A stretch of DNA of 64,000 bases from Asparagopsis taxiformis (lineage: Eukaryota; Rhodophyta; Florideophyceae; Bonnemaisoniales; Bonnemaisoniaceae), in contig JALQPE010000010.1 in NCBI GenBank assembly GCA_030407315.1, forward strand, positions 1 to 64,000. Direction: 5' to 3'. Under the pieces are notes generated by a model. That model saw only the letters and a list, made by a program, of their open reading frames with translations, did no database searches and was not told where the DNA came from. A program made the translations under genes and the position numbers. Every line of letters begins with the position of its first letter. Position 1 is the stretch's first letter. This document shows, one piece after another, positions 1 to 60,533 of this stretch.

Positions 1-2837
1 TGTTGCCGAAATCGTCATGGCAGAGATGAAACGTTGAGCGAGCCAAGCAGATTGTTCGTCTGGCTTACCCCATTGCCGAGTTTTCAAGACAGGATGAGCG
101 TATCGGGCAATGGGTTGAGCACTGCATCCTTTCTGGGATCGTGCCGCAGACCTTCCTTGGAGGTTTGTGTAACATGCTTCCTTCGCCACTACAGGCGCCG
201 CAGCGCGGGGAACCAAGCGCCTTCGTTCTTGCTCCACCGGAAACGTTCGAGGTATTGATGTATTTTCCAAGCGTTGTCTATCATCCGAAATCACAAAAGA
301 ACCTGCCGCGTCGCCGAATAGGAGATGCGGCGAAGAGGGGAACGAAGCCGCACGCGTCCAGCCCATCGGAAAAGCACTAATCGAGCTTGTTACGTGGTTC
401 AAGTTTTATACCATGCTTGGACCGATGTGGCCTACGCCGCAAAGTTTTCCAGCTTCGAAGAGTTGATGGGCGCCGTACAATTTTCGACAGCAGTGAGCAT
501 TGGTTTGACGTGCTCGATGAAGGTCTATTCGCACCGATGGAGCAGAAGCTAGATCTCTACCACAACAAAGCTCCCCTATCTCATCCTGATGGATATGGTG
601 GAAAAGTAGAGACAAGAACCAGTGCGCAGCACAGTGCATTTAGGGACCTTGTGAGGAAGTTCTTCGACCGGTTGCAGTTTCTTATCGTCAACCCGGACCT
701 GTACACCTGGCCGGAGTCCGACCGCTGGGGGGCACTGGAAATATACTTCTCAAGCGGAAATCCGGACAAGCTGCCAGCGTATTTTGACACCCTCGACGAA
801 GACGTTATGGCTGTCCTCCGCCCGGCACCACAAGCCGCGGACGCAGAAAAGGTCCCCAAGCCGGTTGATGACACTCCCACTCGTCGCAACACAGGAGGAG
901 AGGTTTGGTTCCGTCGACAAGACACACAACCAGGCTTCAACTTGGACCTGGGAGGACCAGTCTTACTGCCCAAGGGCCGTCTCCCCCGTCACCGTCACCC
1001 CATGCGACAGAAGAGCAGGAAAGTGAAGGGCAGGCTCTCGCAAAGGACTTTCTTTCGAAAATGAGTCAGTATTGCCGGGTGTACGACGTCCCTTTCGAAG
1101 ATTTGGTCAGTGCCGACGAGAGCCGAGAACACGTGCCCATCACGGGCAACGTTCAGCTCATTCTGACTGATCCGCCCTACAATGTTCGTCGTAAGAGGAA
1201 CGATTCCAACTCTTCGTACGACAGGCTAACTGCAGAAGATATGCAGGCTAGCATCGAAGTGTTTGACGAGCTGTTGCGCCCCGGTGGCCACGGCATCGTG
1301 TTCTGCTCCGTTTTGCAGTTCTACGAATGGTTCCATTACTTGGAAACGTACAAAGGACCGCAGTCAGAAGGCCCAACCGATACTGCTGCCAGTGATGACG
1401 GGTCGGATGAAGAAGAGGTTACGTCCATGAATTCGGACTCCGAAGCATCGCAGCACAGGGCGAAGAAAGTGCGGATGAGGAGGAGGACGAGGAGGAGGAG
1501 GACGTCGTTCGGAATTCAGTTTTCTTCGTTGACGAGGTACCTCTGTTGTTTGTCCGACTACCTGGGCACCTCTATCAAATGCCGGGGCGGAAGAGGTACC
1601 AACGCATGAACATGGCAGAGGTCGCTATCCACTTCTGGAAGCGAGGTGTTCCGTTCAAGACCGGAAGCGAGATGGTGGCCTATAGGAACCACGGATACAT
1701 GGACGGCACGTACCCGGCGTGGTGCAACGTCACCATCAATATGCCCGCCATCGATTCGAATGAGATGGTGTGGCGAACAAGGAGCACAAACCGGTGCTAC
1801 GGTCAGAGTTCGTGCAGAGCAGAAGAGCGTCGCTCTCATGATGGAGTTGATCAGCCAGCATTCACAGCCTGGTGATATTGTTGTCGATCCATTCTCTGGC
1901 ACTTTCGCAACGGGAAAAGCAGCTATGAGCTTGCCTGAGCACCGTGTTTTCGTCGGCAGTGACATGGACAAATTGTGTGTGGTACGATCGCTTCCAAAGC
2001 TGTGTGCAGTCATGTCACGTGTAATTCTTTCAAACAACACTGACATGAGGGTCACGACAGAAGCGAAACAGAGTGCTGAGAAGTTCTTGGCGTCCCCCTC
2101 TGTCACGATGCGTACGCAGAGGGAACGCAGGATCATCGAACCCCCACCTGGCCTTCCCCTGTACCAGAGGTTCCCGAAATATATTCGGCAGTACCTCTGG
2201 CAGCTGTGCCCAGAGTCGATTGCGTCGCGCGAGCACATGGAGAAACCGGTACATTATTGGCCACCTTCCCTGCGCCGCTGGTTGCAAACTGAAAACCCTC
2301 GCGTGATGCGGGCACACGATTGTGTTGCGAAAAAAATTGAGCGTTCGACCATCGCTGATTAAGCATCCAAATGCAGGAAGAGGGCTCTTCGCTGAACAGA
2401 CATTTAATGTTGGTGACGAAGTATGTGCATACTACGGAACTGTTGTGTACTCTGATATGAGCAAGGAGTCGATGAGGTTCGCGTACGGAGAGGGTCACAT
2501 GGCGATAACGAAGGAAACATTCTTGATGTATGCTATCAAGCTGTATGCAACAGCGGAGGACGACGAAAACATCGAGCATCCAATTTGGATTGTTCCGGCT
2601 CCGTTCTGTTCGGCGCAGTTCATCAACGACCCGCGGTATTTGCGAGGTGAGGACACTCCGGCGGAAGACACCAGGCGGATGGCCAACGTCGAGTTTGTCG
2701 AGAACTACAGCAGCGGTTCGACGGGGAAGAAGCTCAAGGCGAAGGACCTAGAAAATCCGAAGATCATTGTAGTACGTGCAATCCGCGATATCCGTCCGGG
2801 GCAGGAGCTCTACGTTCATTATGGGACAGCGTTTTAG
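1..2837 (+). pseudogene. DNA methyltransferase-SET fusion, copy A (broken, 5' end outside window)
   Basis: Coding similarity begins at the window edge and runs through several frames. A helical N-terminal region (about 1-880) leads to a beta-class amino-methyltransferase: motif IV LTDPPYN near 1165, then motif I DPFSGTFATG near 1886, in the DPPY-first order of the N6A/N4C group. A SET domain follows in frame 2322-2837, with GRGLFA, YYGT, FINDP and the closing PGQELYVHYG. The lysine-methyltransferase reading is from family knowledge; the usual NHSCxPN box is not canonical. At least four frame changes occur (around 890, 1500-1550, 1775 and 2330); the last is at a run of seven A. Copy D at 50318-52048 matches bases 1-1720 in the same orientation. 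Intact copy B (17458-20934) gives the domain order. No ParB domain is seen in the part present. It could be a dead copy or a poorly polished intact gene. Confidence 0.8.
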
Positions 2838-3078
2838 AGCATGGAATTAGGGTCACGAAAGATGTTTTCATTTCGACTACAAATAAAGCTACGTTCCAGA
2901 GTTGAAGTATATCATATAATGCAGAATGTCCAGCCACCATTAGTCCAGGGTGAAACCTATTCGGCAGTACTCGCCTGTCAAAAACCAATCGTTCACACTC
3001 TAGGTGCACTTCGTCCGAGCAGTGAACCTGACTGCTTGGTTGCTGTTATGCGTGCAGATGCAAAATACAAGACCAAGT

Positions 3079-4168
3079 TGAAATGGACGCCCGGTGGATG
3101 TCCAGCTCAGTTGCATTGCTGTCCAGCCCAGAAATTCTACAATTCAGGGGAGAAAAATATTGCAAAAAACATCGATTTCAGCGGGTCGATTGTGCCGTAC
3201 GGCACACCCCCATCTCAAAAACATGTTCACATGTGCATGTTTTTGAGAATAGCCCAAATTTTAATTCAAATCAGGGTGTCTAATTTGGCCACAACGGCCC
3301 CAGGAACCGACCGCCGCCCGAGTGGGGTTGTCACTGGCTTCTGTAAGCACTAACTGTAAGGCTAAATGGCGTCTGACAAAGGGTCAATTTCAGGCTCAAT
3401 ACGCCAGGGACAGGTCTTGGTCCTTGTTCCATCATGGTCCCACCCCACTCTCTCACGACCAACCTGAAATGCACGTCCGGTGGATGTCCAGCTCGATTGC
3501 ACTGCTGGCCAGCCCGGAAATTCTAAAATTTCGGGCACAAAAAAATTGTAAAAAATCAACGATTTCAGCGGGTCGTTTGTGCCGTACGGCACACCCCCAT
3601 TCAAAAACATGTTCACATGTGCATGTTTTTGAGAATAGCCCAAATTTTAATTCAAATCAGGGTGTCTAATTTGGCCACAACGGCCCCAGGAACCGGCCGC
3701 CGCCCCGAGCGGGGTCATCACTGGCTTCTGTAAGCACTAACTGTGAGGCTAAATGGCGCCGGAAGATGGGCCGATTGCAGGCTTCAAGCCTAAGTTATGC
3801 TAGGGAGAAATCTTCTTCCGTGTTTCATCATGGTCCCGCCTTACTCCCTCAACAGAAACACTACTCACCCATCACGTTACTCATATTCCGTGCACTTTAT
3901 ATTAGTAGTGAACCCGCCTGCTTAGTTGCTGCAATGCGTGGATGTAGGCAGCACACGACCAACCTGAAATGGACGTCCGGTGGATGTCCATCTCAGATGC
4001 ACTGCTGGCCAGCCCAGAAATTCTAAAATTTCGGGCACAAAAAATCTTGCAAAAATCAACGATTTGGGCGGGTCGATTGTGCCGTACGGCACACCCCCAT
4101 CTCAAAAAACATGTTCACATGTGCATGTTTTTGAGAATAGCCCAAATTTTAACTCAAATCAGGGTGTT
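3079..4168 (+). repeat. Cluster of three ~290-bp palindromic repeat units (U1-U3)
   Basis: Units start at about 3079, 3463 and 3963, each at GGACGTCCGGTGGATGTCC or a variant. Each unit then has the same order of parts: an AAATTC(T)A(A/C)AA segment, the perfect 16-bp palindrome TGTGCCGTACGGCACA, a hairpin with arms CTCAAAAACATG / CATGTTTTTGAG around CACATGTG, then CAAATCAGGGTGT, a GC-rich CCCCGAGCGGGG part and GTAAGCACTAACTGTAAGGC. U3 stops after the CAGGGTGT part. The same units flank the other side of the dioxygenase gene (8717-9745) and recur on the right arm. Short open frames inside the units are repeat noise. Confidence 0.9.
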
Positions 4169-4511
4169 CCCCGGATAAAGGGGTGCTCGCAGCCGCCCCA
4201 AAAGCCGCCTAGCTTGACAGCTGTAATTTTAACACATTACACATCAAGGACACTGCCTGCTTCACGCCACCTCGTCAGGTTTCGAGAGCCCGACTCGGGC
4301 CCGTTCTGAACGGACACTCACATCTCGATTGCCTGTCTTGCATTCCAGCGGTCACGATAGGTGTGTACCTAACAAAATTTCGGTTGTATTGTGTTATTAT
4401 TTCCAGCGATTGGCGTTCACGACCATTCTTCAACTTAACGTGAAACATACCATCCACATCACTCGAATACGTCAACGTCAACCATCTCTTTTCCTTTCCA
4501 ACTCAACAACC
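4169..4511. other. Upstream region of ParB-dioxygenase A
   Basis: About 340 bases between the last repeat unit and the chosen start codon. The segment is conserved on the right arm (about 47287-47630), as expected of a promoter or 5' leader. I see no clear TATA box and no coding signal. Confidence 0.4.
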
Positions 4512-7500
4512 ATGGCGGATACGCATTTCAGCAGTTTGTTTTCAACGGTTTGCGGCGATCAAGTGAGCGCGTCAGCGGAGTCGCGCGGACTCAAGCGCGG
4601 CGTCGATGTCGACTGTTTGCGGACGTGGACGGTGCGGCTGTGCATATTGGGACGGCTTCGGTGAGCACTGCTGGTGGCGATGTTGGCCTTCCGCGCACGC
4701 TGCACAACCACAAGCTGCCGGAAACCGACGAGGCCGACTATATCGTCGTGCGCAACATTGCGACTAAGGACAAGTTCAAGGACCTCCCGTTCCCGTACAT
4801 GTTTGATGGCGCCGAGGGACCGCCGGAGACGATGGGTGGAGCATACGCCGCGGCGTTTTACCCTTGGGATACTCGGATGATGCGCCCCGCTGCGGAGGAT
4901 GGCTCTAGCGACATTCGTACCCCTGCTGCAGCGTCAAACTTCAACGCAGCGACGAACCAGGCCAGCTCGGGACGGATGCCCAGTACCGGTCCAGCAGGCG
5001 AAATCACTGGTTCGGGGGGTACGAAGCATCCAGCACGCTCCGTCCGGTTTCGGGAGGCACGAAGCGCCCTGCTCGCTCTGCCAGAGCCTCCAGTGGAGGC
5101 ACGAAGCACCCTGCTCGCTCCAACGTCACCGAAGCTACTACGCAGGACGTAACCGAGGTGGACGACGAACCGGAGGTGGCGGAAAGCATTCGTGAGCAGC
5201 AGGGGACGCAAATTATGGTGCCCAAGTTTGTGACGTCGGATTACGTCGGAGAAGGAGCGACTGTGTTGGTGAGGCAGCTAGTGGAACCGGCCGTGACCCT
5301 TCGCGATGTCAAAGAAGACCACGTGGAGGACCTGCGCAACAATATGTTGGCGGTGGGGTATGTGAGCTCTTCGCGTATCACTGTGACGGTGCTGAGGTCG
5401 CAGAACACGCATTTGTCCGCCGACACGCGTCTGTTCCAGAATGGCAAATTCCATGCCAATGCGAACGTGACCGTGATCGACGGACTGCATCGTCTCAATG
5501 CTATGCATAGCATTGCGGATGACTTCACGCGCCTCACCCGTATGCACAGAACCAAGCTGCCACAGGAGGCAAACCGCTTGCGCTGGGTTACTCAGCCTCT
5601 GGATGTGTACTACCTTCGCCGCAAGGACGACAGTGATCTCCAGCCTCATGAGATCATCCACAAGAGTGCAGAGTCGAACCATACGACTGGGACGCAACTG
5701 ACGGAGCGCTCCCTGGTTCGAATCTTGTCGTCCATCCAGCAGTTCATCCGTACGATGCTGTTGCAAAAAACGTGGAAAACGCTGGCGACTTGCGTGAGTC
5801 TGATGTCATCCGAACATTGTTCGAGGCGCAGTTCATGGGGATGATGAATTCGACGAACACGGCTCGGCGGTGGACGCGTTTGGCTATAGCAACGCTGAAG
5901 CATCCTGTTCTCGACGACGTGTTGCGTGAGCTGAACAATTCCGAGCGCCGCAACGAGATTGGGATAACGCACCTGGACCACAAGATAGTGCGCGAGTTGC
6001 TGGAAGAAAACTTTGTCTTCGTCTTGCGTGGTCTTTCGGAGTACTTGAACCCTGCTCATGGCGGACGTCCGGATGGACGCTTTGACGTGAACGACTTTTA
6101 TACATACGTCCGTCGCGTGACTGCAATAGCAAATTCTCTGTACGCTGCGTTTGGGCGCCCAAAGAGTATTATGCGCAAGTCATTTCTGAGCACAGAGATG
6201 GCAATTGGGTCGGTTAAGCAGCCGAAGGAGTTGCAATGGCATCTCACCAATGCCATTGCAATGTATAGAGGGGACGACCGGAGCAGTGAGGTTCGAATGC
6301 GACGGAGAACCACGCGTTTACAGGATTTGGAAACGAACTTGAAAGAGTTTTTCAATCCGACATTGAAGAAGAAGACTAAGGCTCGACGCAAACGCCGCCC
6401 TTCTGCTGCCAATGTGAGACTCACTCACAAGAAGCAGCGGAATGTCGAACATGAGCCTGCTTCGCATGGCATCCGCCGCCGTTCACAGCGACTTCGCTCG
6501 ACGGGGAGCACACGCCTCGAGGAAGAAGAGCCGGTTGTGGTACAACAATCCGCCGGGGAAGAAGAGCAGGCCGTTGTTGATAAACCCACCGATCAACAAC
6601 AAGCCACTGCTTCCGGTGATGAGGTTGACGAAGACTCCGCCCGTTCCCCCGATTCTGCCGTTGAGATTGTCCCCCAAGATAACCAACGTGCTGGTGCGAC
6701 TCCCTCCAACCAAGAATCTGTCCATACCGCTTCGGACGAGGAAGACAAACAGGGTGCAGACGAGGGCCAAGTCGAAAGCAAGGGGGTCCGCGAAGTGACA
6801 ATTACATTCACTGTTCCGGAAGGAGTGGAAGTCGATGAAGACGGTTACATCGTTCGTGACTCTCCTTCTGAAGACGACCTCCTCTTCGACGACCGTATGC
6901 CGTCTCTTCCTGACGATTTCGAAGACCGAGCCGAAGGGCATCATCTGGCGCAGCGTCCCGCGGATGTCATCGCATCGGTGAGGGTTGGCTGTCTGCCCCC
7001 GATTGAGCTCAGGTTGTTATTGGAGAGTGTGGAAATCGATGAGGAGGGCAGAGAGGTGAGGTATTTGAAGCAAGTGGCGATGGACCCTGTGTTTGAGGGG
7101 CTGCATATTCCGGAAGAACATCGGGCTCGTGTGCTATTCGAAATCGATCACGTCTATCCGATGTTCTTCGCAGCGTGGAAGATGGCTGCCAAGGCGATGT
7201 GTGAGCCTACATCGACGTTTCTACCCTCGAGGCTGGACTTCGCTCAGGTTGCGCGAATGTCTACAAGCTGGAAGGATTCGTATGAGGCCGGCACTGGTAT
7301 GGCGTACTTCCACAATTGCCGAACGGAAATCAACGAGCGAGGGTATACGGTGATGCACAATTTCGCGGATGTAAGCTACCTAGATGCGTCGGACAAGTTC
7401 CCATTTGACTTGGGTCTCATGGAAGAAATTCCTAACCAGGAATTGTTTCGGTACTTTTTGGGAACGTGGGAGGGGGAGCAGGTGCACAAGGACCCTGGGA

Positions 7501-8441
7501 ACCGGCAGCTGTGGAGTCCCATTGTCAATACGGGGGACGATGAAACAGACGAGAAGAACCGGAATGAGGGGAGGGCTCGCTTCACGTCTACGCGCCACTG
7601 CCTGGTTGACTATGCCGAGAACGATGAGACGCATATCGACCGGTTCAAGTTTGTGACGCGGCGAGCCCTGCTGGATGTGTGGTTGGGAATCCTTGTCCGG
7701 CTGACAGGGCTGGAGGAGTGCGGTTTACCGGGAGAAAAACTTGTCATGCCGGCATCTGGGGGACGGTTTTTGATAACGGGAAAGGGGTGTCCTCGGCAGG
7801 TCCCACACAATGATTTCCCTGTTCCTCCTCGCGACCGCAAAGATCAACTTCCGGGTTACTTTGTTATTGCCAACGGAGATGACCCATTCCCTATCTGGGT
7901 GTGTCCAGGGTCCCACAAGTACGTCTTTTCCAAAGCGCTGGAATTAGATATGTACGCCAAGACGATGAAGCTGAAGAAGGTAATCGTTCCGCCACGTTCA
8001 GTCTTCATCGGTCACGGCCATGTACAACATGCCGGGGCAGGGCATGTCGACAGAGTTGTGTCACACACGACAACGAGGTATCACACGTATTTCAGGAATG
8101 CGTCGTATCCGATTCCCGACAATGTTTCGTTTGGTTTCATCAGGCGGTTGGGATTCGAAGAAGAAGTCATCGCCAATGCTCCGCGCCGGTCTGCAAGGCA
8201 AAGTCAACCGGCACCTGTCAATGTTCGCCACAAGACAGTTGTTCCCATCCCGGTCAAGAAAGATGGTAGGCCGAAGACAGGGCAGCTCCGAATGATGCGG
8301 ATGAAGACGACAGAACCTCGCAAGGATGTAATGCACACACCGAGTGTGGCCCCGGTAGTGCCTCTTCTGCCGGGACAACCTGGATATCTAGTTCACTATC
8401 ATAGTGAGGACGAAGAGGAAGAACAGTTTTCCGACGGCTAG
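4512..8441 (+). pseudogene. ParB-like/2OG-Fe(II) dioxygenase fusion, copy A (frameshifted)
   Basis: The reading starts at MADTHFSSLF (4512), conserved on the right arm. Domains in order: an N-terminal domain with PFPYMFDGAEGPP and PWDTRMM, homologous to the C-terminus of MTase E; a linker of GGTK(H/R)PARS repeats (5010-5130); a ParB-like domain with VIDGLHRLNAM near 5480; a helical region; a long acidic/basic linker; and a dioxygenase domain with HND (7806-7814), a distal GHGHVQH (about 8010-8030) and the 2OG-binding arginine in RYHTYF near 8077. Iron and 2OG binding follow from the HxD...H...R pattern; the substrate is unknown and nucleic acid is inferred from ParB and the MTase partners. 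Frame changes lie near 4612, 5042 and 5754, each a one-base loss relative to the right-arm copy, which is intact at those points. From 5772 the frame is open for 889 codons. Confidence 0.82.
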
Positions 8442-11199: not shown

Positions 11200-11391
11200 T
11201 CCCGAGGGGGACATCCGTGGTACTAGAAACAATGAATGTCGCCCTAGTAATACTAGACGTACTAGACCGCATGGACGTCCGGTTCTAGGCGGACATCCAA
11301 AAATACTGGAGAACATGGACGTCCGCCTAGTAATACTAGGTGTACTAGAGGTTGTGGACGTCCGCGTCCATTTCCGAGAACACAGACGTAC
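11200..11391 (+). promoter_or_regulatory. Array of GGACGTCC and CTAGTAATACTAG palindromes
   Basis: This block at the inner end of the arm holds several copies of GGACGTCC(G) or GGACATCC and two copies of the near-palindrome CTAGTAATACTAG, plus related ACTAGA half sites. It lies 90-280 bp upstream of the start of ParB-dioxygenase B and is repeated inversely at 40402-40610, where no gene follows. Regular palindromes just upstream of a gene look like protein-binding sites. The first parts of the ~290-bp units also begin with a GGACGTCC palindrome. Confidence 0.5.
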
Positions 11392-11482
11392 TCAGCTTAC
11401 GCAGCAAAACAGCTTGTCGTTCAGATCTTCTTCTCTCTTTCTCAATCTTTCACTCTTCGTTTGTCAATCACTCATCAAAACA

Positions 11483-16829: not shown

Positions 16830-16832
16830 GCT

Positions 16833-46200: not shown

Positions 46201-47286
46201 TGGTTCTGTGCATACGGGTGAGGCGCGTGAAGTCATCGGCAATGCTATGCATAGCATTGAGACGATGCAGTCCGTCGATCACGGTCACGTTCGCATTGGC
46301 ATGGAATTTGCCATTCTGGAACAGACGCGTGTCGGCAGGCAGATGCGTGTTCTGCGACCTCAGCACCGTCACAGTGATACGCGAAGAGCTCACATACCCC
46401 ACAGCCAACATATTGTTGCGCAGGTCCTCCACGTGGTCTTCTTTCACATCCCGAAGGGTCACGGCCGGTTCCACTAGCTGCCTCACCAACACAGTCGCTC
46501 CTTCTCCGACGTAATCCGACGTCACAAACTTGGGCACCGTAATTTGCGTCCCCTGCTGCTCACGAATGCTTTCCGCCACCTCCGGTTCGTCGTCCACCTC
46601 GGTTACATCCTGCGTAGTAGCCTCGGTGACGTTGGAGCGAGCAGGTGCTTCGTGCCTCCACTGGAGGCTCTAGCAGAGCGAGCAGGGTGCTTCGTACCTC
46701 CACTGGAGGGTCTTGCAGAGCGAGCAGGGCGCTTCGTGCCTCCCGAAACCGGAATGGAGCGTGCTGGATGCTTCGTACCCCCCGAACCAGTGATTTCGCC
46801 TGCTGGACCGGTACTGGGCATCCGTCCCGAGCTGGCCTGGTTCGTCGCTTCGTTGAAGTTTGACGCTGCAGCAGGGGTACGAATGTCGCTAGGGCCATCC
46901 TCCGCAGCGGGGCGCATCATCCGAGTATCCCAAGGGTAAAACGCCGTGGCGTATGCTCCACCCATCGTCTCCGGCGGTCCCTCGGCGCCATCAAACATGT
47001 ACGGGAACGGGAGGTCCTTGAACTTGTCCTTAGTCGCAATGTTTCGCACGACGATATAGTCGGCCTCGTCGGTTTCCGGCAGCTTGTGGTTGTGCAGCGT
47101 GCGCGGAAGGCCAACATCGCCACCAGCAGTGCTCACCGAAGCCGTCCCAATACGCACAGCCGCACCGTCCACGTCCGCAAACAAATTGACATCTACGCCG
47201 CGCTTGAATCCGCGCGACTCCGCTGACGCGCTCACTTGATCGCCGCAAACCGTTGAAAACAAACTGCTGAAATGCGTATCCGCCAT
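43293..47286 (-). pseudogene. ParB-like/2OG-Fe(II) dioxygenase fusion, copy A' (two frame breaks)
   Basis: Right-arm sister of 4512-8441, read on the minus strand from MADTHFSSLF (47286). Frame one (to 46603) has the PFPYMFDGAEGPP domain and four GGTK(H/R)PARS repeats. Frame two (46597-45566) has the ParB-like domain with VIDGLHRLNAM and the whole helical region. Frame three (45584-43293) has the linker and the dioxygenase with the same HND, GHGHVQH and RYHTYF motifs. The breaks are a CC instead of CCC near 46645 and a TT instead of TTT near 45604; the left copy has the longer run at both places. Conversely this copy is intact where the left one is broken. The C-terminal ~45 residues differ in sequence from the left copy although both end EEFSDG or EQFSDG. 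Confidence 0.83.
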
Positions 47287-47627
47287 GGTTGTCGAGTTGG
47301 AAAGGAAGAGCGATGGTTGACGTTGACGTATTGGAGTGATGTGGATGGTAGGTTTCACGTTGCTTGAAGAATGGTCGTGAACGCCAATCGCTGGAAATAA
47401 TAACACAATACAACCGAAATTTTGTTAGGTACACACCTATCGTGACCGCTGGAATGCAAGAGAGGCAATCGAGATGTGAGTGTCCGTTCGGAACGGGCCC
47501 GAGTCGGGCTCTCGAAACCTGACGAGGTGGCGTGAAGCAGGCAGTGTCCTTGATGTGTAATGTGTTAAAATTACAGCTGTCAAGCTAGGCGGCTTTTGGG
47601 GCGGCTGCGAGCACCCCTTTATCCGGG

Positions 47628-48690
47628 GAACACCCTGATTTGAGTTAAAATTTGGGCTATTCTCAAAAACATGCACATGTGAACATGTTTTTGAGATGGG
47701 GGTGTGCCGTACGGCACAATCGACCCGCCCAAATCGTTGATTTTTGCAAGATTTTTTTGTGCCCGAAATTTTAGAATTTCTGGGCTGGCCAGCAGTGCAT
47801 CTGAGCTGGACATCCACCGGACGTCCATTTCAGGTTGGTCGTGTGCTGCCTACATCCACGCATTGCAGCAACTAAGCAGGCGGGTTCACTACTAATATAA
47901 AGTGCACGGAATATGAGTAACGTGATGGGTGAGTAGTGTTTGTGTTGAGGGAGTAAGGCGGGACCATTATGAAACACGGAAGAAGATGCCTACCTAGCAT
48001 AACTTAGGCTTGAAGCCTGGAATCGACCCATCTTTCGGCGCCATTTAGCCTCACAGTTAGTGCTTACAGAAGCCAGTGATGACCCCGCTCGGGGCGGCGG
48101 CTCCGGTTCCTGGGGCCGTTGTGGCCAAATTAGACACCCTGATTTGAATTAAAATTTGGGCTATTCTCAAAAACATGCACATGTGCACATGTTTTTGAGA
48201 AGGGGGTGTGCCGTACGGCACAATCGACCGCCCAAATCGATGATTTTTTTACAATTTTTTTTGTGCCCGAAATTTTAGAATTTCTGGGCTGGCCAGCAGT
48301 GCAATCGAGCTGGACATCCACCGGACGTCCATTTCAGGTTGGTCGTGAGAGAGTGGGGTGGGACCATGATGGAACAAGGACCAAGACCTGTCCCTGGCGT
48401 ATTGAGCCTGAAATCGACCCTTCGTCAGACGCCATTTAGCCTTACAGTTAGTGCCTACAGAAGCCAGTGACAACCCCACTCGGGGCGGCGGCCGGTGCCT
48501 GGGGCCGTTCTGGCCAAATTAGACACCTTGATTTGAATTAAAATTTGGGCTATTCTCAAAAACATGCACATCTGAACATGTTTTTGAGATGGGGGTGTGC
48601 CGTACGGCACTTTCGACCGCCCAAATCGAAAATTTTGCAATTTTTTTTGCTGCCCGAAATTCTACAAGTTCTGGGCTGGCCAGTAATGCA
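47628..48690 (-). repeat. Cluster of ~290-bp repeat units (U1'-U3')
   Basis: Mirror copies of U3 (about 47628-47832, partial), U2 (48040-48334) and U1 (48432-48690). U1' ends abruptly at TAATGCAT, where the arm homology stops. Confidence 0.88.
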
Positions 48691-48994
48691 TTAGCTATCT
48701 CCTCTAAACCGATTCTAACAAGCAGAAAGAATCCTCTCCTTCATGACGATGCTCTCGAATTGAGTGCAATGCAACGGACTCCCTCCAGAGAACGATAAAG
48801 CATCGTCTTTTCCAAGGCATTTCCGTACGAAAAATAATCGAAAAACATATTTGACTTTAACCTAACAGCTATCGCGAGCACCGTACTCAGCTATATTTCC
48901 TCTGTAATTTCCTTCCTCCACCAATCAATAGCCGCTTGGTCCAGGCTTAAAAGCCTTCCACTATCTGTCCTATCCATCGAAGACCCTCGGAGGG

Positions 48995-49176
48995 TCCATC
49001 AACGGAGGTGGAGGAGGCTATAGTGGAAGCCTGGAGAACATGTGAGATGTCAGTACCCATGGATCACAAGAACATGTTCAGGTGCGGTTCGGATATTCTT
49101 CCATTAACGGAGGTGGAGGAGGCTATGGTGGAAGCCTGGAGAAGAATAGAGTAGTCCTATACCCATGGATCACAAG
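48995..49176. repeat. Two-copy tandem repeat, ~105-bp period
   Basis: Both copies contain AACGGAGGTGGAGGAGGCTA, GGTGGAAGCCTGGAGAA (or AGTGG) and ACCCATGGATCACAAG, with a variable part between. There is no coding signal across 48691-49435 otherwise. Confidence 0.75.
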
Positions 49177-49435
49177 TAGACGTTGTTGGGCTCCTTTCGA
49201 AGCCCATTCGTCTCTTGAATAAATTTAGCACCCAATCATATACGATTGCCGAGTTGACACCCCGTATGTCTCGTTGGTAGAAATAGCAGGGGTTCCACCA
49301 CTCAGCTGGCGGGAAGTAGTTACTGATTATATGAGATATGGCTTAGCTCCCGCCAAAACCGATAGCTCTGGGCTCAGGTTCTCCAAAGTGGTTATACGAA
49401 TGTGTTCTGACAATGCTAGAAGACGAATATCTGCA

Positions 49436-49640
49436 TCCTGATTTGAATTAAAATTTGGGCCATTCTCAAAAACATGCACATGTGAACATGTTTTTGAGAT
49501 GGGGATGTGCCGTACGGCACAATCGACCGCCCAAATCGATGATTTTTTGCAATTTTTTTGTGCCCGAAATTTTAGAATTTCTGGTCTGGCCAGCAATGCA
49601 TCTGAGCTGGACATCCCCATGTCCAGTGGCCGTCCGGATG
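49436..49640 (-). repeat. Extra partial ~290-bp unit (U7')
   Basis: Carries CTGATTTGAATTAAAATTTGGG, the CTCAAAAACATG hairpin, GTGCCGTACGGCAC and GGCCAGCAATGCATCTGAGC, then stops at a variant of the GGACGTCC end. It lies upstream of MTase D and outside the inverted-repeat arm. Confidence 0.85.
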
Positions 49641-49966
49641 TCGCTCACCTGGTAAGCGTGATGCACCTGTGACAACCTATGTGACTGCAGTCACAGCCGC
49701 CATGGCGGCCGTGCAGTACAACACTCAAAGACAGGGAATCACAATCTTTTTAAAAATTTTCTCTACCACGTATCCGTCACAACTTATTACCTACACCGGT
49801 TACGGGTTTCAAGACCTTTCCAGTGCTGTGTACCCGTATACTCTGTTCCGTTCGATATCAACCAGTGTTCCTCACGAAAGAGTGCAAACGTCACGAGATA
49901 CGTCGTCAAATTTGACTGTCTCGCCGAGCGGTCGCCATCCTGTACCGAATTCCCACTCATTCCATT

Positions 49967-52048
49967 ATGACGAATAAGCGCAGGCGCAACAGCAATCCGA
50001 TCGTTGACGACGCAACCGTGCCAATTCTGCGCGAACCCGCTAGCCATTGGGAGGATTCTAGTGACATGGGTACACGTCGAAACGTAGGTCGCGCCGCCCG
50101 CGAAACTACTCTCGCTGGCAAAGACTTCCTCCGCCTCCTGCTGGATTTATTCGCCCACTCAAGTTCCGCAGACTTGACGGACAAGCCGGGAGGTTTCACA
50201 TACGCGGACCTTGGCGCTTGGGTTGCGCAGGGCACGGAAGAACAATTTCTGGCGCTGCAAGGTCGACTCAGCATGGCCTTCAGCGGTCGTTCGAAGAATG
50301 CTGGAGTCGAGGCGGATGTTGCCGAAATCGTCATGGCAGAGATGAACGTTGAGCGAGCCAAGCAGATTGTTCGTCTGGCATTACCGATTGCCGAGTTTTC
50401 AAGACAGGATGAGCGTATCGGGCAATGGGTTGAGCACTGCATCCTTTCTGGGATCGTGCCGCAGACCTTCCTTATTGGATGTAACATGCTTCCTTCGCCA
50501 CTACAGGCGCCGCAGCGCGGGGAACCAAGCGCCTTCGTTCTTGCTCCACCGGAAACGTTCGAGGTATTGATGTATTTCCAAGCGTTGTCTATCATCCGAA
50601 ATCACAACAAGAACCTGCCGCGTCGCCGAATAGGCGACGCGGCCGAAGAGGGGAACGAAGCCGCACGCGTCCCAGCCCATCGGAAAAGCACTAATCGAGC
50701 TTGTTACGTGGTTCAAGTTTTATACCATGCTTGGACCGATGTGGCCTTCGCCGCAAAGTTTTCCAGCTTCGAAGAGTTGATGGCGCCGTACATCATTTTC
50801 GACAGCAGTGAGCATTGGTTTGACGTGCTCGATGAAGGTCTATTCGCACCGATGGAGCAGAAGCTAGATCTCTACCACGACAAAGCTCCCCTATCTCATC
50901 CTGATGGATATGGTGGAAAAGTAGAGACAAGAACCAGTGCGCAGCACAGTGAATTTAGGGACCTTGTGAGGAAGTTCTTCGACCGGTTGCAGTTTCTTAT
51001 CGTCAACCCGGACCTGTACACCTGGCCGGAGTCCGACCGCTGGGGGGCGCTGGAAATATACTTGTCAAGCGGAAATCCGGACAAGCTGCCAGCGTACTTT
51101 GACACCCTCGACGAAGACGTTATGGCTGTCCTCCGCCCGGCACCACAAGCCGCGGACGCAGAAAAGGTCCCCAAGCCGGTTGATGACACTCCCACTCGTC
51201 GCAACACAGGAGGGAGAGGTTTGGTTCCGTCGACAAGACACACAACCAGGCTTCAACTTGGACCTGGGAGGACCAGTCTTACTGCCCAAAGGCCGTCGTC
51301 TCCCCCGTCACCGTCACCCCATGCGACAGAAGAGCAGGAAAGTGAAGGGCAGGCTCTCGCAAAGGACTTTCTTCGAAAATGAGTCAGTATTGCCGGGTGT
51401 ACGACGTCCCTTTCGAAGATTTGGTCAGTGCCGACGAGAGCCGAGAACACGTGCCCATCACGGGCAACGTTCAGCTCATTCTGACTGATCCGCCCTACAA
51501 TGTTCGTCGTAAGAGGAACGATTCCAACTCTTCGTATGACAGGCTAACTGCAGAAGATATGCAGGCTAGCATCGAAGTGTTTGACGAGCTGTTGCGCCCC
51601 GGTGGCCACGGCATCGTGTTCTGCTCCGTTTTGCAGTTCTACGAATGGTTCCATTACTTGGAAACGTACAAAGGACCGCAGTCAGAAGGCCCAACCGATG
51701 CTGCTGCCAGTGATGACGGGTCGGATGAAGAAGAGGTTAGTCCATGAATTCGGACTCCGAAGCATCGCAGCACAGTGGCGAAGAAAGTGCGGATGAGGAG
51801 GATGAAGCAGGACGAGGAGGAGGAGGCACGTCGTTCGGAATTCAGTTTTCTCTCGTTGACGAGGTACCTCTGTGTTGTCCTCCTACCTGGGCACCTCTAT
51901 CAATGCCGGGGGCTGAAGAGGTACCAGAACGCATGAACATGGCAGGGTCGCTATCCACTTCCTGAATCGAGGTGTTCCGTTCAAGCTGGTAAGCGAGATG
52001 GTGGCCTATAGGAACCACGGGGGGATACATGGACGGCACGTACCCAAC
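49967..52048 (+). pseudogene. DNA methyltransferase-SET fusion, copy D (3' truncated)
   Basis: The frame from MTNKRRRNSN (49967) is open for 471 codons and holds only the helical N-terminal region; no ParB motif is seen at this start, unlike copy B. A one-base loss (TT for TTT near 51372; copy A has TTT) shifts into the frame starting 51379 with LTDPPYN near 51487 and LRPGGHGIVF. Further shifts follow after 51740. Similarity to copy A ends abruptly after ACGTACCC at 52048, before the SAM motif and SET domain, where unrelated sequence begins. The gene is therefore cut, most likely by insertion or deletion linked to the neighbouring transposase-like gene. It is divergent from dioxygenase A' with 2.7 kb between them. 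Confidence 0.8.
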
Positions 52049-52356: not shown

Positions 52357-54567
52357 TTACCTGACCATGCGTCTCTTCCATCGTAGACCTCGTACCACCG
52401 AACACACAGCTGACAAATAACCCCTTCGTTGTTTTTTCTTACAACTCATAATTTGTCCTAGCCAGAACGGCATCTCAGTAGTACAGTCTTCTCCATTTAC
52501 AGCCACGAAGCGATTCACCGAGTAGGGCAAGTCTGATAGTGGTATGCAATCTGCAGTCGACATGAGTTCCTCCTCCATCGGGACGACGTTCCGATTCCCT
52601 TTTCGATACATGCCATTCATCTCGAAACATTCGGTGAGGTTCCAATGAAAAGAATCTTCCCTTTCCTCATAAACCTGTCGTAGAAGCTCATGTAGCTGAT
52701 CCATTTTAGAATTGTTATTGACCCTGCTCTCTTCCGAACGAAAACGGAGCAGGACCTCATGTCGATCTGGAGGAGAACGTATGATATTACTCGGTGTTCG
52801 TTTCAGTTCAGGAGGCTTAACCAGGAAACCATTCAGCCCCGGTGAGAACTGGGAGAGGCTTCCAGTTGTCTTCACAAAATATCTTAACATCGCATGCAGT
52901 TCTGTAGAAGTCATAACTTTTTCCTGTATCTTGGGATCGGTGAAACCTGAAGTATCTGAATTTTGAAAAGCATGCACTTTTCCAACCGAATTCTCACTCC
53001 GGCAGAGACCGGAGAAGTTTGCCACGTGCAACATACGAGAGACAGAGGGTTCCGGAGTATAGGACACTCTGAGTTGTTCAACTAAATCTTCCATAGTGAC
53101 GGCGTTGTGGGAACGTAGCCTGCGAGAGGTACAGCTAAAGGCCTGGTCGATGTCTGCATGGGTGTGGCCGATGGGTAGGAAAGAAGCGTGTACTTCTTCA
53201 AACACACCCCAAGCAACGAGACATTCTAGATAGCAAAACAGAAACGTGTTCTTGTTCTCTCTTGTGCAATTGTCTACCTGCAAGTACAGTGTTCCCTGAA
53301 GACTCGAACCCATAGCCTTTTTGGTAAGAGTCCTGTGAATTGCCTCGATGATATGATTTGCCCCAGTTTCGAATTCAGCAGTAAGTGTGTACAACGAAAG
53401 ATGCTTTCGGACACCATGTTCGAGAACACCTATGAGTCTCACCTTCAAACTATGACCAACAGTCGCTTTTGTACATACCGTGAAATGGGGAAGACCGTAT
53501 CCTGATTGATCAGCCCCGTCTACGATCAGAGACGTGAACCTGGAGGGATATAGTGACGCTTCTTCACACTTCTTTTGATACTCCCTGCGTTCCCGTGCCA
53601 CCATCTCGATATGACGCTGGCGACGTTCCAGAAGCGGAGCAGTGCGTTGAATATCTGTCCCGATGGCTTCCAGTTTATCACGTATGTAATCACATTCCGA
53701 ACATTTCGTGAACCTCTGGACACGCCGAACCTTGATATTCGCACAAAACGTGTTCCAGGTGTTGTAGAAGTAGCTCAAAGTTGGTGGGTTCCGGTTCGAG
53801 TATAATAACGTAAATTGGTCGCAGAACATCTCGTACACAGCCTTCTTCTCGAAAAGAGGCAGATGCTTCTCTCCACTGTCTGGCATCATATCAGCAGTCG
53901 AGGCAGACAAGCGTTCAAGGAAGAAGATCACTGCATCTCTATGTGGAGAGCCAGAAATTCGTTTCGGAGAAGCCATAAATGGAAGACTCCCATTCTGGCA
54001 AGCTTTCTCTACCGAGGTCTGCATATGTCGTGAAAACTTGAAGCTGAACTCGAGGAATTCGCAACACACAGGCTTCTCAGAGAAGTAGAACCGGTTACTG
54101 TTTGGTTCCAGTAGAGCGTGCAGATACCTGCGGCGATCGTCCCTGTTGTACAACAAAACTCGTTCTGCTTCATTCCGAAGGAAAACATGGTCGGTTTTTC
54201 TGAAGCATCCCTTATTGCAGCATGGTATTCTTCTTATATCTGTTTTGGGCAGTGACAAACTGAACTTCACCCGCCTCTCTAGCATGCTGCTCTTTCGACG
54301 AACTGAACTGGACCTCGTCACACTTTCATAATTCTTCCTGTGTTGTAGGCGTGAAAATGGTTTATACATCGAAGCCGTGGATCGGAAAGAGTCGGAAGAA
54401 GTACCCACTATTCCATGCATCACTTCATCGTGGCTACGCGGCATAGATATGGTTTCAACAGAAGGAGCGTGTTCTGATTCGGAGTCCCTAGAAAGAGATT
54501 TCATGTATGATTCGGCTTTCTCCAGTGCGTCATTCCTAGCTTCGGCGAGATGAAAACGCGGAGCCAT
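52357..54567 (-). CDS. Transposase-like protein of the GHTH-DID family
   Basis: An open frame of 736 codons. An N-terminal cysteine cluster (CCNKGCF near residue 118; VCCEFLEFSF near 160) precedes a core with three acidic positions: SLIVDGADQSG near residue 350, LYLQVDNCTREN near 432 and PIGHTHADIDQAF near 470. This GHTH-x-DID core is widespread in algal and other protist genomes and is often annotated only as a domain of unknown function (I believe DUF7869); an RNase-H-like transposase is the likely role. The C-terminus has MPFWLGQI. It starts beside the breakpoint that truncates MTase D and is in the same orientation as MTase E, 400 bp downstream of it, so the two may share one element. Confidence 0.8.
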   Translation of the reverse strand: MAPRFHLAEARNDALEKAESYMKSLSRDSESEHAPSVETISMPRSHDEVMHGIVGTSSDSFRSTASMYKPFSRLQHRKNYESVTRSSSVRRKSSMLERRVKFSLSLPKTDIRRIPCCNKGCFRKTDHVFLRNEAERVLLYNRDDRRRYLHALLEPNSNRFYFSEKPVCCEFLEFSFKFSRHMQTSVEKACQNGSLPFMASPKRISGSPHRDAVIFFLERLSASTADMMPDSGEKHLPLFEKKAVYEMFCDQFTLLYSNRNPPTLSYFYNTWNTFCANIKVRRVQRFTKCSECDYIRDKLEAIGTDIQRTAPLLERRQRHIEMVARERREYQKKCEEASLYPSRFTSLIVDGADQSGYGLPHFTVCTKATVGHSLKVRLIGVLEHGVRKHLSLYTLTAEFETGANHIIEAIHRTLTKKAMGSSLQGTLYLQVDNCTRENKNTFLFCYLECLVAWGVFEEVHASFLPIGHTHADIDQAFSCTSRRLRSHNAVTMEDLVEQLRVSYTPEPSVSRMLHVANFSGLCRSENSVGKVHAFQNSDTSGFTDPKIQEKVMTSTELHAMLRYFVKTTGSLSQFSPGLNGFLVKPPELKRTPSNIIRSPPDRHEVLLRFRSEESRVNNNSKMDQLHELLRQVYEEREDSFHWNLTECFEMNGMYRKGNRNVVPMEEELMSTADCIPLSDLPYSVNRFVAVNGEDCTTEMPFWLGQIMSCKKKQRRGYLSAVCSVVRGLRWKRRMVR

Positions 54568-54964
54568 CTGCAGTGGGAGCAGAACGAATTATCTCTGAAC
54601 GGTAGTTAGATTTGCAGGTAGCGTGGAAAAGAGATGGCTGCAAGACGAGTATATCGGTTGATCAAGATGCATGGTGAGTAGGAATGACACCGGTGAGACG
54701 TTCATCTAATATGGATGCAGAGTGGCCTCCTCGACGGCGATAGTTGGCCCAGGATACAGCGCCAAATACCTATGCCAAATCAATCTCTGTTGTGAATGGA
54801 GTACGGCTGATTGGTTGATTTGTGCTCTTCATGCGCCCATGATTACGGGGAAAAACGACAACAATCTTTCCTCTCTGAAGGTTTACAAATGGTACGAAAC
54901 AGAGCTAAAGGTTTATTGCAGTGGTTTTGTTCAAATCTGCCGAGCGAAACTATACGTAATAAGA

Positions 54965-57900
54965 CTAAGACAACGTCCTCATCTTGTTCAAGTCCCATGC
55001 GAATATCCCGTTCAGTCCTTTCAAAGTTCCAGGAGGAGGTTCAATACCACCGTATTTGTACGGGTAAGGACAATCCAAACAACATTCGTTCGGTTCGAAC
55101 ATATAACAAGATACAAGTTTCTGATCCTCACCTTGAAAGTTCGCTAGAGGTACATTGTGTATTGTAGTTTGGAACCTCTCATCACTAGTTCCTGCACAAA
55201 GGAGAGACGCTTTTCCGACGACCTGATCCAAAATGTATAGTTCAACAGAATCTCCTCCTTTCAGTACTCTCTCTATTCCTTCGATAGTGGATTTACCGGC
55301 ATTTGTATTATCATCTTTTCCCCTTTTCTGTAGCGAACAGATTTTCGGTTGGCTTAGCAGAACGCCATCCTCTGCATGATTCCCTGTTCTCCTCTTCTTC
55401 GATCCGATACGTGCTCTCAGATCATTATGATACAAAGCATCGGCAATAGAACGAAGTCTTTCATGAGCGAGACGGAAAATCTTGGTACTAGCTTCCACAA
55501 CCACACATGAACGGGCTGTCTTCATCGCTGCGATCGCAGTAGTAAGTGTTCCTCCGTAAACATCAATAACTGAACCCCTCTCAGGACAAAACGTGTTGAT
55601 TATCTCGGATAACATTCCAATATGTTTCTCTTCTGTTAGAACAGGAGATTTTGTTCCTGGAGTGAGAAGTTTGTCTTTCGAAACGGGAATTCTGGACATT
55701 GCAGCGAATTTCCGTTTCGTTTCTGTTGGGACGAGGTGATATTGGCTTCGAAGGTCTGGCTTGAAACCGTCCTTACGATGTCCGGGAGCCCTGGCAACAA
55801 CTGCAAACTCGCACGCGTTTTGTGGGAACATATCTCCGCGATGTGCTTGTACAGTGTTCGTGTCTTTCATGAATACGAAAGGGTATTCCGGACCGTCGAA
55901 ACCGACGTTTCTCAGCTCATGCAGGAATGCTGGAAAGTTTCGGAATGATACAAAACAGAAAAACCAGCCACCTGGCTTCAAGGTTCTCCTTGCAAGCTGG
56001 CATAATGCATTGATTTCCTTATCACTTATGAAATTGTTATATGCGGTATTACGAAGGGATTTAGAATTCGGAGTTCTATACAGAGCGTCGGTAAGAACTA
56101 AATCCTGAAGAGGGTACTCATCTGTCCATATTTCCTTGTCGAAGTCCTGCCATTTCATCTGATAGCATGTAATTCCCATTTCAAGAACGTAGTCTTTTCT
56201 TTCTGGCTCATTCGTACCAGATGAACCGCGTTTAGAATGAAGGTTGAGGCGGTCTGAGTTGATACTAGGTGAAGCAGAGACATCTGAGTTGATACTAGGT
56301 GAAGCAGAGACATCGTTCTCTGTTATCATTCGGTCGACTGGAATAGAAGTTTTCGGTCCGGTGATAACCTTTTCAGAAGCGTCGACTTCATCTTGTACAG
56401 ATTCTTGCGTTATCTGGCTCATCTTCGGTACCGAGACTATATCCTCATCACATATTTCGGAGCCTAGTTGAGGAACACTATCTTCCTTCGAGACATCTTT
56501 TTGTTTCTCTTCTTTCGCGTCCCTTGTATCTGCATTTTCGTTATCGGCTGCCGTCTTGCCAATTTCCTGACAGAAAGAATCGGGATCTGGGTCTTTTCGA
56601 TGGCTTTCCCGATACTTCTTTTCCTTCATGGGAGCAATTTGAGGGCAAACTTTCCGGTACTGCTTCAAAAGAGCATCCAGAATATTATAATCGTTTCCCA
56701 TGTTCTCCATAACATCAGTATCGAACTTTGATGAGCGAAGTACATTCTGCTTGATTGATTCCATGCCCTTTGGCCATACCTGTCCTTCATGAAGAACCTC
56801 GAACTTACGCGCTTCTTTCATCGCTGCGCATGCGTATTCGTATTGCTGGAGGGTATCTTTGTATGATACTGGTTTGAATTTATTCAATCTGGAGATTCCC
56901 CGAAGCCTGTAAAGAGTATGAACTTGAACTTCTTCAGCATCAGTACCCGAAGCATTCATGAACTTGGTTGCAGATTTCAAAGATGTTATATTCACAAATT
57001 TGCGATACACGCGACAGTCAACGCTTTTCATTGGGGTATTAGTACCCTTTCTCCGAGTTTTCAATGCCATACTGTTGCTAGAAGGAGGTTCTGCCAAGTC
57101 TGGATGCTCCGAATTCATAATTGTTCCAATCTCTTCGATCACTCGCGCAGGAAGGCGCAATGCCGTCGCAGCAGTCTGTCTGACGGTGTTATCCTTGAGG
57201 TGGGAGCAACCATCATATGCGGCAGCAACTTGTTTGGCTCTAGGTGGCTTTGAGGTCATGCTCTGCATCCGGTGGGCTTCTTTCATTCCGCTCAGGATAT
57301 CATAGAACGTGGTTTCGACATATAATGTTGCATCATGCTTACGGTTCTGATGTCTGCCTAGTTGTTTCAGAACTTGGATAGAATGACCTCCTTTCAGTAT
57401 CGTGACAGGCCACATAAAAGAGTCCCACCTCTCCGGGTTCTCATCCATTAACTCCTGGATTGCAGTCAGTCTGTGCATACCGTCAACAACTCCGTACCAA
57501 ACGGAACGGCATTCGGACTTCTCTTTCGCCTCACTGTCAGAAAGAAAATCACCCTGAGGACCGCGTATCGTTTTGAAAAAGTCAATAATGTGGCGCTGGA
57601 ACGACCCGGTCAACTCGACTACGATCGCATTGTCGGAGCCCGAAATGAATCCATCAATTTCGTTTGTTTCATCTTGTTCTTGACATTGTGCTGACTTCAT
57701 GTTTCCAGAAAATATCGATTTCAATCGCAACACACCAGAGCGCACTACTTGTCGAACAGCAGTGAGTGGGATGCATGCCCGCGGATCAACACGTGTGTTC
57801 GTAGACCCTTCCATGACGCCTGCAAATAAGGCGGTATTAGTGTGCTCCATGGTGGAAGTACCCGGTTCCTCTTCTGGAGGACCTGATTTGGAACTGAGTC

Positions 57901-58024
57901 TGGACCCACTCCTCTTGAAGAATCTCGTCATGTCATCCAGTTCTGAAATAATGAAGTGCCGGGTAAGAAATGAAGGGGAAACAGAAGCTATAAAACTCTG
58001 TATCAATTTCTCGCACTTTCGCAT
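54965..58024 (-). CDS. ParB-like/DNA methyltransferase-like protein, copy E (altered catalytic motif)
   Basis: An open frame of 1019 codons. The ParB-like domain covers about residues 80-230 with GVVDGMHRLTAIQ near 183. A helical region and an acidic linker follow; the linker has a perfect 30-bp tandem duplication (56254-56283, 56284-56313) repeating DVSASPSINS. The methyltransferase-like region has LVLTDALYRTP near residue 645 where DPPY is expected, LKPGGWFFCF, and SAM motif DVYGGTLTTA near 820. There is no SET domain. The last 85 residues (HNVPLANF, PYPYKYGGIEPPP, FAWDLNKM) match the N-terminal domain of dioxygenase A (HNHKLPET, PFPYMFDGAEGPP, FYPWDTRMM). Loss of both prolines suggests weak or no methyl transfer, yet the frame is intact, so a binding or regulatory role is possible. 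Confidence 0.88.
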   Translation of the reverse strand: MRKCEKLIQSFIASVSPSFLTRHFIISELDDMTRFFKRSGSRLSSKSGPPEEEPGTSTMEHTNTALFAGVMEGSTNTRVDPRACIPLTAVRQVVRSGVLRLKSIFSGNMKSAQCQEQDETNEIDGFISGSDNAIVVELTGSFQRHIIDFFKTIRGPQGDFLSDSEAKEKSECRSVWYGVVDGMHRLTAIQELMDENPERWDSFMWPVTILKGGHSIQVLKQLGRHQNRKHDATLYVETTFYDILSGMKEAHRMQSMTSKPPRAKQVAAAYDGCSHLKDNTVRQTAATALRLPARVIEEIGTIMNSEHPDLAEPPSSNSMALKTRRKGTNTPMKSVDCRVYRKFVNITSLKSATKFMNASGTDAEEVQVHTLYRLRGISRLNKFKPVSYKDTLQQYEYACAAMKEARKFEVLHEGQVWPKGMESIKQNVLRSSKFDTDVMENMGNDYNILDALLKQYRKVCPQIAPMKEKKYRESHRKDPDPDSFCQEIGKTAADNENADTRDAKEEKQKDVSKEDSVPQLGSEICDEDIVSVPKMSQITQESVQDEVDASEKVITGPKTSIPVDRMITENDVSASPSINSDVSASPSINSDRLNLHSKRGSSGTNEPERKDYVLEMGITCYQMKWQDFDKEIWTDEYPLQDLVLTDALYRTPNSKSLRNTAYNNFISDKEINALCQLARRTLKPGGWFFCFVSFRNFPAFLHELRNVGFDGPEYPFVFMKDTNTVQAHRGDMFPQNACEFAVVARAPGHRKDGFKPDLRSQYHLVPTETKRKFAAMSRIPVSKDKLLTPGTKSPVLTEEKHIGMLSEIINTFCPERGSVIDVYGGTLTTAIAAMKTARSCVVVEASTKIFRLAHERLRSIADALYHNDLRARIGSKKRRTGNHAEDGVLLSQPKICSLQKRGKDDNTNAGKSTIEGIERVLKGGDSVELYILDQVVGKASLLCAGTSDERFQTTIHNVPLANFQGEDQKLVSCYMFEPNECCLDCPYPYKYGGIEPPPGTLKGLNGIFAWDLNKMRTLS

Positions 58025-60480: not shown

Positions 60481-60533
60481 GCCCGGTCGCGCCCGGCTCC
60501 AGGTTTCCACGTGTCAGGGGTTCCTGCCGGCTT

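Follow-up and report, generated by a model that had tools for sequence, protein, structure and literature searches.

Transposons with epigenetic cargo in the red alga Asparagopsis taxiformis

What kind of locus brings DNA methyltransferase genes and probable dioxygenase genes together around one ParB-like module is the question raised by the start of a contig (JALQPE010000010.1, here C10) in the 141.5-Mb, 3156-contig assembly of the red alga Asparagopsis taxiformis (GCA_030407315.1). The window, that is, the whole stretch of DNA analysed, is the first 64 kb of C10. An earlier note on this sequence had proposed nine independent loci, a ParB-like part in every member and spread with transposons. 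Our gene set, derived from stop-to-stop frames, Pfam and comparison of the window with itself, is smaller: an inverted pair of copies (3112-11388 and 40401-48690) and a direct pair (1-1715 and 50317-52045) leave six distinct genes after merging, namely ParB-dioxygenases A and B, dioxygenase C, a ParB-methyltransferase-SET, a ParB-less methyltransferase-SET and ParB-methyltransferase D, with A and the ParB-less gene present twice each. Not all have a ParB part: the DG-x-HR motif is absent from every frame of both window copies of the ParB-less gene (1-2837 and 49916-52045) and from the dioxygenase C region. The spread with transposons holds in a stronger form than proposed, for the genes lie within elements and both kinds travel together in two of them, E1 and E2. 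These are real, mobile and unusual genes: transposons with epigenetic cargo.

Two elements and their cargo

The features of E1 and E2 in the window are as follows (the methyltransferase proteins are called writers; ORF, open reading frame; aa, amino acids).
11389..25508, + strand: the part of E1 right of the nested E2, ending at the right terminus ...CACCGTAGTG
11486..16358, + strand: ParB-dioxygenase B, split by an insertion at 13981-15217; an intact 1211-aa copy lies in C436 (L012)
17458..20925, - strand: ParB-methyltransferase-SET (E1 writer), 1155 aa, with DGAHR at residue 68, DPPF at 658, FSGT at 840 and a C-terminal SET
21397..22800, + strand: E1 cargo ORF, 467 aa, no Pfam match
23076..24656, - strand: E1 cargo ORF, 526 aa, with a coiled coil at its N-terminus; no Pfam match passes the cut-off
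25325..25508, + strand: E1 right terminal region, with a second, inverted copy at 63817-64000
1..2837, + strand: ParB-less methyltransferase-SET, E2 copy 1, frameshifted, its 5' end lying outside the window; N6_N4_Mtase at 872-1606 and 1610-2359, SET-like tail in frame from 2363
3004..4167, no strand: E2 repeat array between the two cargo genes, units with ACACCC...GGGTGT; related arrays at 8700-9508, 42268-43063, 47630-48691 and 49434-49616
4439..8441, + strand: ParB-dioxygenase A, E2 copy 1, frameshifted; the intact copy L070 is 1310 aa from ATG
11355..11388, - strand: terminal inverted repeat (end A) of E2, where E2 is nested in E1
40401..52045, no strand: E2 copy 2, with end A at 40401, ParB-dioxygenase A at 43293-47424 (- strand) and a shortened methyltransferase-SET at 49916-52045 (+ strand)

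Piecewise comparison with 20 stretches from five other contigs showed that segment 11389-25508 is common to the window and the other E1 copies. The right end at 25508 is sharp (...CAACACCGTAGTG) in the window and in four other copies with differing flanks; the copy on C436 has the same flank there as the window's. The left end, CACTACGGTGTTGAAAAGG, is located further left than 11389, and the termini read CACTACGGTG...CACCGTAGTG. The E1 copy on C436 is 19,410 bp long and that on C1830 25,292 bp; in the latter the order from the left is a 1288-aa transposase-like ORF, a third dioxygenase gene (ParB-dioxygenase no. 3), ParB-dioxygenase B, the ParB-methyltransferase-SET on the opposite strand and two more ORFs; C436 is without some 5.4 kb between 6-bp repeats, so that the transposase is joined to the end of no. 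3 in one open frame of 968 aa. Position 11389, at one time taken as the left end, was dropped as such when five other copies were seen to run on past it, and a truncation of E1 at this point was replaced by the nesting of E2 in E1 at 11388|11389: position 11388 is an E2 end, and E1 is unbroken there in all five other copies. The reverse also occurs: on C1772 and C2805 an E2 copy has E1 inserted in it, and on C1830 E1 directly adjoins E2 sequence. Two further observations concern the surroundings of these genes: a strongly palindromic tandem-repeat stretch (16860-17153), variable among E1 copies, lies downstream of the ParB-methyltransferase-SET gene, and C436 has, immediately beyond the left end of E1, a divergent methyltransferase-SET gene (L011, 6030-8271), which means that further families are present in the genome.

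The E1 ends are CACTA...TAGTG in inverted orientation, as in CACTA/EnSpm (CMC) transposons, and their 2-bp flanks match, as target-site duplications do, in four of seven end pairs (C19, C104, C212 and C436; 4.6e-4 by chance with equal bases). The transposase-like ORF has no Pfam match at an expectation value (E) of up to 10, and a pattern search for the C(2)C and H(3-4)H motifs that this group has between its catalytic residues found one CHIC, at residue 669, with no H(3-4)H following it. We call E1 CACTA-like by its ends and do not file it as a CACTA/EnSpm member, because no family model recognises its transposase. E2, about 21 kb long as pieced together from different copies, has ends with the inverted motif CGTCTGTGTTYTCGGAARTGGACGCGGACGTCCA in common, two pairs of which lie 20.0 and 20.8 kb apart, and its 2-bp flanks match in six of ten end pairs (1.0e-5 by chance, again with equal bases). 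The pairs of both elements are facing ends among the first 100 places listed, and some may not be true pairs. Besides repeat arrays and the genes for ParB-dioxygenase A and the ParB-less methyltransferase-SET, E2 has a coiled-coil ORF of 794 aa and ORFs that are candidates for its transposase; these candidates gave no Pfam match and are not significantly similar to the transposase of E1. Next to its A end lies a proline-rich, strongly strand-skewed ORF (10088-10834, and 40955-41698 in the second copy) that is probably no protein gene. Genome-wide, E1 end motifs number 1059 on the left and 697 on the right, and E2 end motifs 2689, against 0 for the reversed control of each; because pairs also lie 10-15 kb apart, many of these motifs must belong to shorter relatives of E1 and E2.

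Copy counts come from protein searches of the genome in which the best candidates were scored, so that identities are biased upward and the counts are lower bounds. The E1 writer occurs in at least 38 places (38 scored of 3846 first-look candidates), ParB-dioxygenase A in at least 49 (49 scored of 4434) and writer D in at least 44 copies (44 scored of 2884; of the 45 matches, two are parts of a single gene and 36 are without a stop). For ParB-dioxygenase A, the open frame that holds the match is exactly 1403 aa long in 41 of the 49 listed cases, and identity over the aligned part is mostly 100%; the window's second copy is absent from this list. All ten E1 writer copies that were read keep the open 1155-codon frame, and their single changes are 11 synonymous against 7 non-synonymous (per-site ratio 0.19; Fisher p 5.2e-4): the E1 writer is selected to stay intact. 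E1 and E2 have moved, carry these genes and have spread recently, and the E1 writer is under constraint. Within the window the dioxygenase genes are broken, A by frameshifts in both copies, B by its insertion and C by frameshifts, with intact copies of A and B elsewhere in the genome; B is also frameshifted in C1830. The insertion in B (~1.24 kb) is absent from the five E1 copies compared, has long frames open on both strands and gave no Rfam match.

Two further candidate elements lie to the right of E1.
27500..31200, - strand: dioxygenase C locus, with an HLD motif and broken frames, probably one element (E3) with the transposase at 32656-36738
32656..36738, + strand: broken gene for a transposase-like protein, a homologue of that of E1 at 26% identity (E 1.7e-63)
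52357..54588, - strand: DUF7869 protein, the E4 transposase candidate (Pfam 3.6e-46)
54965..58024, - strand: ParB-methyltransferase D (E4 writer), with DGMHR, DALY in the DPPY place and a C-terminal module in common with the N-terminus of ParB-dioxygenase A
The proximity of its two genes is what points to E3 as one element. For E4, the DUF7869 gene stands beside writer D in seven of seven copies examined, and the neighbourhood is 99% kept in all six copies sampled beyond the window's. An ORF at 59192-59800 resembles the N-terminal part of the DUF7869 protein and looks like a second copy that has been cut short, and at 60475-60849 a 25-bp unit is repeated in tandem, with 11 overlapping copies in register.

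Writers, ParB-like parts and probable dioxygenases

The methyltransferase is the best supported part of the cargo, and the identity of methyltransferase and SET is well supported. The beta-class amino-methyltransferase domains named in the earlier note were confirmed (Pfam N6_N4_Mtase at 1.8e-16, 1.4e-8 and 3.3e-10), and the E1 writer has DPP[YF] ahead of FxGT, the beta-class order. Its methyltransferase part also matches a PHROG DNA methyltransferase family (4.1e-23) and a CcrM/YhdJ-type NCBIfam; its nearest folds are headed by CcrM, with the rotifer N4-cytosine (N4C) enzyme among others (46 matches at E up to 0.001). The catalytic core is the one usable part of the E1 writer structure model. 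DPPF and the nearest relatives suggest N6-adenine as the likelier product, with N4-cytosine less likely. The note's "often plus SET" stands for the E1 writer, whose SET passes Pfam (27.5 bits against a cut-off of 22.4; 4.3e-6), and for the 1-2837 gene, whose SET-like tail was recognised by alignment to a database relative, P0003; it fails for writer D, which has no Pfam SET match. Nor does writer D, for all its N6_N4_Mtase domain, have the working catalytic motif ascribed to it, the DPPY position being DALY.

Relatives of the E1 writer among the ~8000 best database candidates are P0001 (99% identity), which may be from this same organism, P0002 (43% identity over 99%), P0003 (a methyltransferase-SET that has no ParB part) and P0004 (a methyltransferase); the solved sequences nearest to the P0002 methyltransferase are DpnA, CcrM, MboIIA and RsrI. 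Among about as many candidates, ParB-dioxygenase A has one relative, P0005, of 1200 aa and the same ParB-dioxygenase architecture, and ParB-dioxygenase B has none among the 8000 best scored. By P0002 and P0005 each fusion exists outside this genome, P0001 being excepted as possibly from the same organism, and these two relatives support the paired ParB fusions in part.

The DG-x-HR motif is present in the E1 writer, ParB-dioxygenases A and B and protein D. The ParB regions of writers and dioxygenases have no Pfam match above cut-off, and their putative assignment rests on profile matches: residues 38-131 of P0002 match the ParB-like phage family phrog_1033 (6.2e-5), and residues 26-107 of the E1 writer an unnamed family (5.1e-5). 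When the writer's ParB-like part and those of the two dioxygenase groups were aligned by profile, two sequences a side, the single-comparison E values were 5.2e-4, 2e-7 and 1.2e-4, but the probabilities came to only 31, 94 and 55%. Weak matches at the motif to GmrSD_N (0.1 and 0.19) and DndB (0.15) suggest the DGQHR branch of the ParB/sulfiredoxin (Srx) fold. The two kinds have a further stretch in common: some 100 residues found N-terminally in ParB-dioxygenase A and P0005 are also present at the C-terminal end of writer D, with alignment scores of 88 and 90, respectively, against shuffled means of about 27 (26.8 +- 4.4 for A) and 0 of 2000 shuffles reaching either.

We consider the second kind of cargo gene a probable dioxygenase gene on account of a conserved HxD-H-R motif, a type of motif that the note had seen; it is found in ParB-dioxygenases A, B and no. 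3 and in P0005, with 71-74 residues from H to H (74 in A, 71 in P0005, 72 in B and 72 in no. 3). No. 3, read in C1830, is one ORF of 1087 codons with DG-x-HR at 139 and HTDV at 969. A structure model of the dioxygenase has a predicted local distance difference test (pLDDT) score of 38.6, and its best Foldseek E is 0.49, a list we treated as meaningless. Of the claim that one ParB-like module is joined to both activities, the existence of both fusion kinds stands, and the dioxygenase half is supported by the motif without a fold match.

The host

The assembly holds ten light-harvesting matches, and the two compared with solved chains fit the red-lineage type; one of the best-matching chains we take to be from the red alga Porphyridium. 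Three E2 ends lie on contig C38 along with a light-harvesting gene (59347-59784), and the elements are therefore in the algal genome. A six-frame search without introns, whose controls rang in 10 of 14 prokaryotes, gave no candidate for a C5-DNA-methyltransferase (PF00145) in the assembly, which is notable in a transposon-rich alga. A search for MT-A70 in the host gave no match with its controls silent too, and is uninformative. Because no C5-methyltransferase was found, N6-methyladenine (6mA, or m6A) is favoured over 5-methylcytosine (5mC) as the oxidase substrate, with moderate confidence.

What the cargo may do, and known systems

A methyltransferase-SET protein is encoded in both E1 and E2, alongside one or more probable dioxygenases, and we propose, tentatively and at a little under even confidence, that these large cut-and-paste transposons carry a kit for re-marking chromatin and DNA that keeps their own chromatin permissive. 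The ParB-like module would bring the enzymes to element DNA, perhaps to the repeat arrays at the ends and between the genes; the methyltransferase would set 6mA and the SET domain a histone mark, which together accompany permissive chromatin in other eukaryotes; and the oxidase would remove or alter a repressive or misplaced mark. The net effect would be an element that stays expressed and mobile despite a host that would silence it. In several eukaryotes 6mA accompanies trimethylation of histone H3 lysine 4 (H3K4me3), which is not required for 6mA in one of them, as far as the accessible part of the source goes (PMC12695648). A more far-reaching version, in which a transposon-borne m6A writer-SET and an m6A-oxidising eraser with the same ParB-like address were captured independently by at least three transposase types and form the main adenine-methylation machinery of a host without detectable cytosine DNA methylation, we regard as doubtful.

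Several results count against the proposal. Matching flanks are lacking in three of seven E1 end pairs (C10, C64 and C1830) and in four of ten E2 pairs. The dioxygenases have no match in Pfam (E up to 10, Tet_JBP and other 2-oxoglutarate (2OG) families included), among PDB sequences or among folds; the ParB-like residues 1-130 of the E1 writer model reach a pLDDT of 25-45, so that the fold check of this protein bore out its catalytic core alone; and a PDB sequence search with the ParB alignment gave no match. The C5-methyltransferase search could miss an intron-split gene, and its controls were prokaryotes. The ParB motif is missing from the E2 writer and dioxygenase C, and DPPY from the E4 writer; a uniform targeted system is therefore not carried by all elements.

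Other readings were considered. Dam methylation times the transposition of Tn10, and the algal methyltransferase could likewise label element ends so that the transposase tells the element or its new copies from host DNA, with the oxidase resetting the label and chromatin effects secondary. Writers in elements with three different transposase candidates, an m6A-type enzyme and repeat arrays close to the cargo genes and ends all agree with such self-marking, but the SET fused to the writer points at histones, and we think it rather unlikely. Should the ParB-like part instead be a nuclease or nucleoside triphosphate (NTP)-binding module of the DGQHR/DUF262/GmrS branch, the proteins would act against competing elements or foreign DNA rather than in gene expression. 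The GmrSD_N and DndB matches and the insertion of E1 and E2 into each other favour this, and the available part of one source assigns the DUF262 and DGQHR domains to the ParB/Srx fold and gives them roles as nucleases and NTPases (PMC4619093); yet those scores are weak, P0002 fits the ParB partition family phrog_1033 better and no restriction partner is seen, which makes it quite unlikely. We give equally little credence to a dioxygenase that acts elsewhere than on DNA methylation, as a histone or ribosomal protein hydroxylase or as no 2OG enzyme at all, and that was captured as cargo by chance: the empty Pfam and fold searches speak for this, but four diverged sequences retain the HxD-H-R spacing, the pairing recurs in E1 and E2, and A, B and no. 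3 all have the ParB-like part.

That contamination or misassembly accounts for the elements, as bacterial or viral DNA or as collapsed repeats with no place in the algal nuclear genome, is highly improbable and already largely refuted. Both window copies of A are frameshifted and the window copies differ by small indels, as in an artefact, but C38 joins E2 ends to an algal gene, and scans of prokaryotes and viruses returned methyltransferase-domain or short SET matches alone: ten prokaryote loci matched the writer in its methyltransferase part, phage matches covered ~21% of their query, and viral scans gave none for the writer, one 43-residue SET match for the writer alignment and none for the oxidase.

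If the permissive-chromatin proposal is true, then in place of the single epigenetic enzymes known in transposons these elements hold a DNA and histone writer, an oxidase and a shared addressing module (present in the E1 and E4 writers and in ParB-dioxygenases A, B and no. 3) in one mobile unit. They would form a natural high-copy system to test whether eukaryotic DNA adenine methylation can cause open chromatin, an open question to which they are suited because enzymes, likely targets and hundreds of copies share one genome.

Transposon-borne TET/JBP and SET genes are already known; the pairing of writer and oxidase in one element and the ParB-methyltransferase-SET fusion are, in the open-access literature searched, unreported. 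According to the accessible part of one survey, TET/JBP genes are carried by many lineages of fungal transposon (KDZ, EnSpm, Plavaka and others), where they are proposed to serve escape from silencing, and one fungal TET acts on 6mA as well (Kojima 2025, PMC12730594). The likeness to the algal elements lies in dioxygenase cargo in several unrelated cut-and-paste lineages, some with 2-bp target duplications, and in the counter-silencing proposal, as far as that part of the survey describes them. In contrast, no similarity to Tet_JBP is detectable in the algal oxidase, which is joined to a ParB-like module and shares its element with an m6A-type methyltransferase-SET, in a host without a detected C5-methyltransferase. 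The same part of the survey describes SET histone methyltransferase genes as cargo of HarbingerS and MuDR in Phytophthora, and plant VANDAL transposons that encode a sequence-specific protein relieving the silencing of their own family (PMC12730594). The algal SET differs from that of HarbingerS and MuDR in being part of a fusion with a DNA amino-methyltransferase, which in E1 also includes a ParB-like module; unlike VANDAL, the algal elements encode writer and probable oxidase domains. To our knowledge, the VANDAL anti-silencing proteins have no known enzyme domains. CcrM, DpnA, RsrI and the bdelloid rotifer N4C-methyltransferase have the same catalytic domain as the algal writer by sequence and fold, whereas these beta-class m6A enzymes of bacteria and phages and the rotifer enzyme are all without its SET and its helical middle region. 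ParB/sulfiredoxin-fold domains (ParB, GmrS/DUF262 and DndB/DGQHR) have DG-x-HR and partial profile matches in common with the algal module, and differ from it in their fusion partners.

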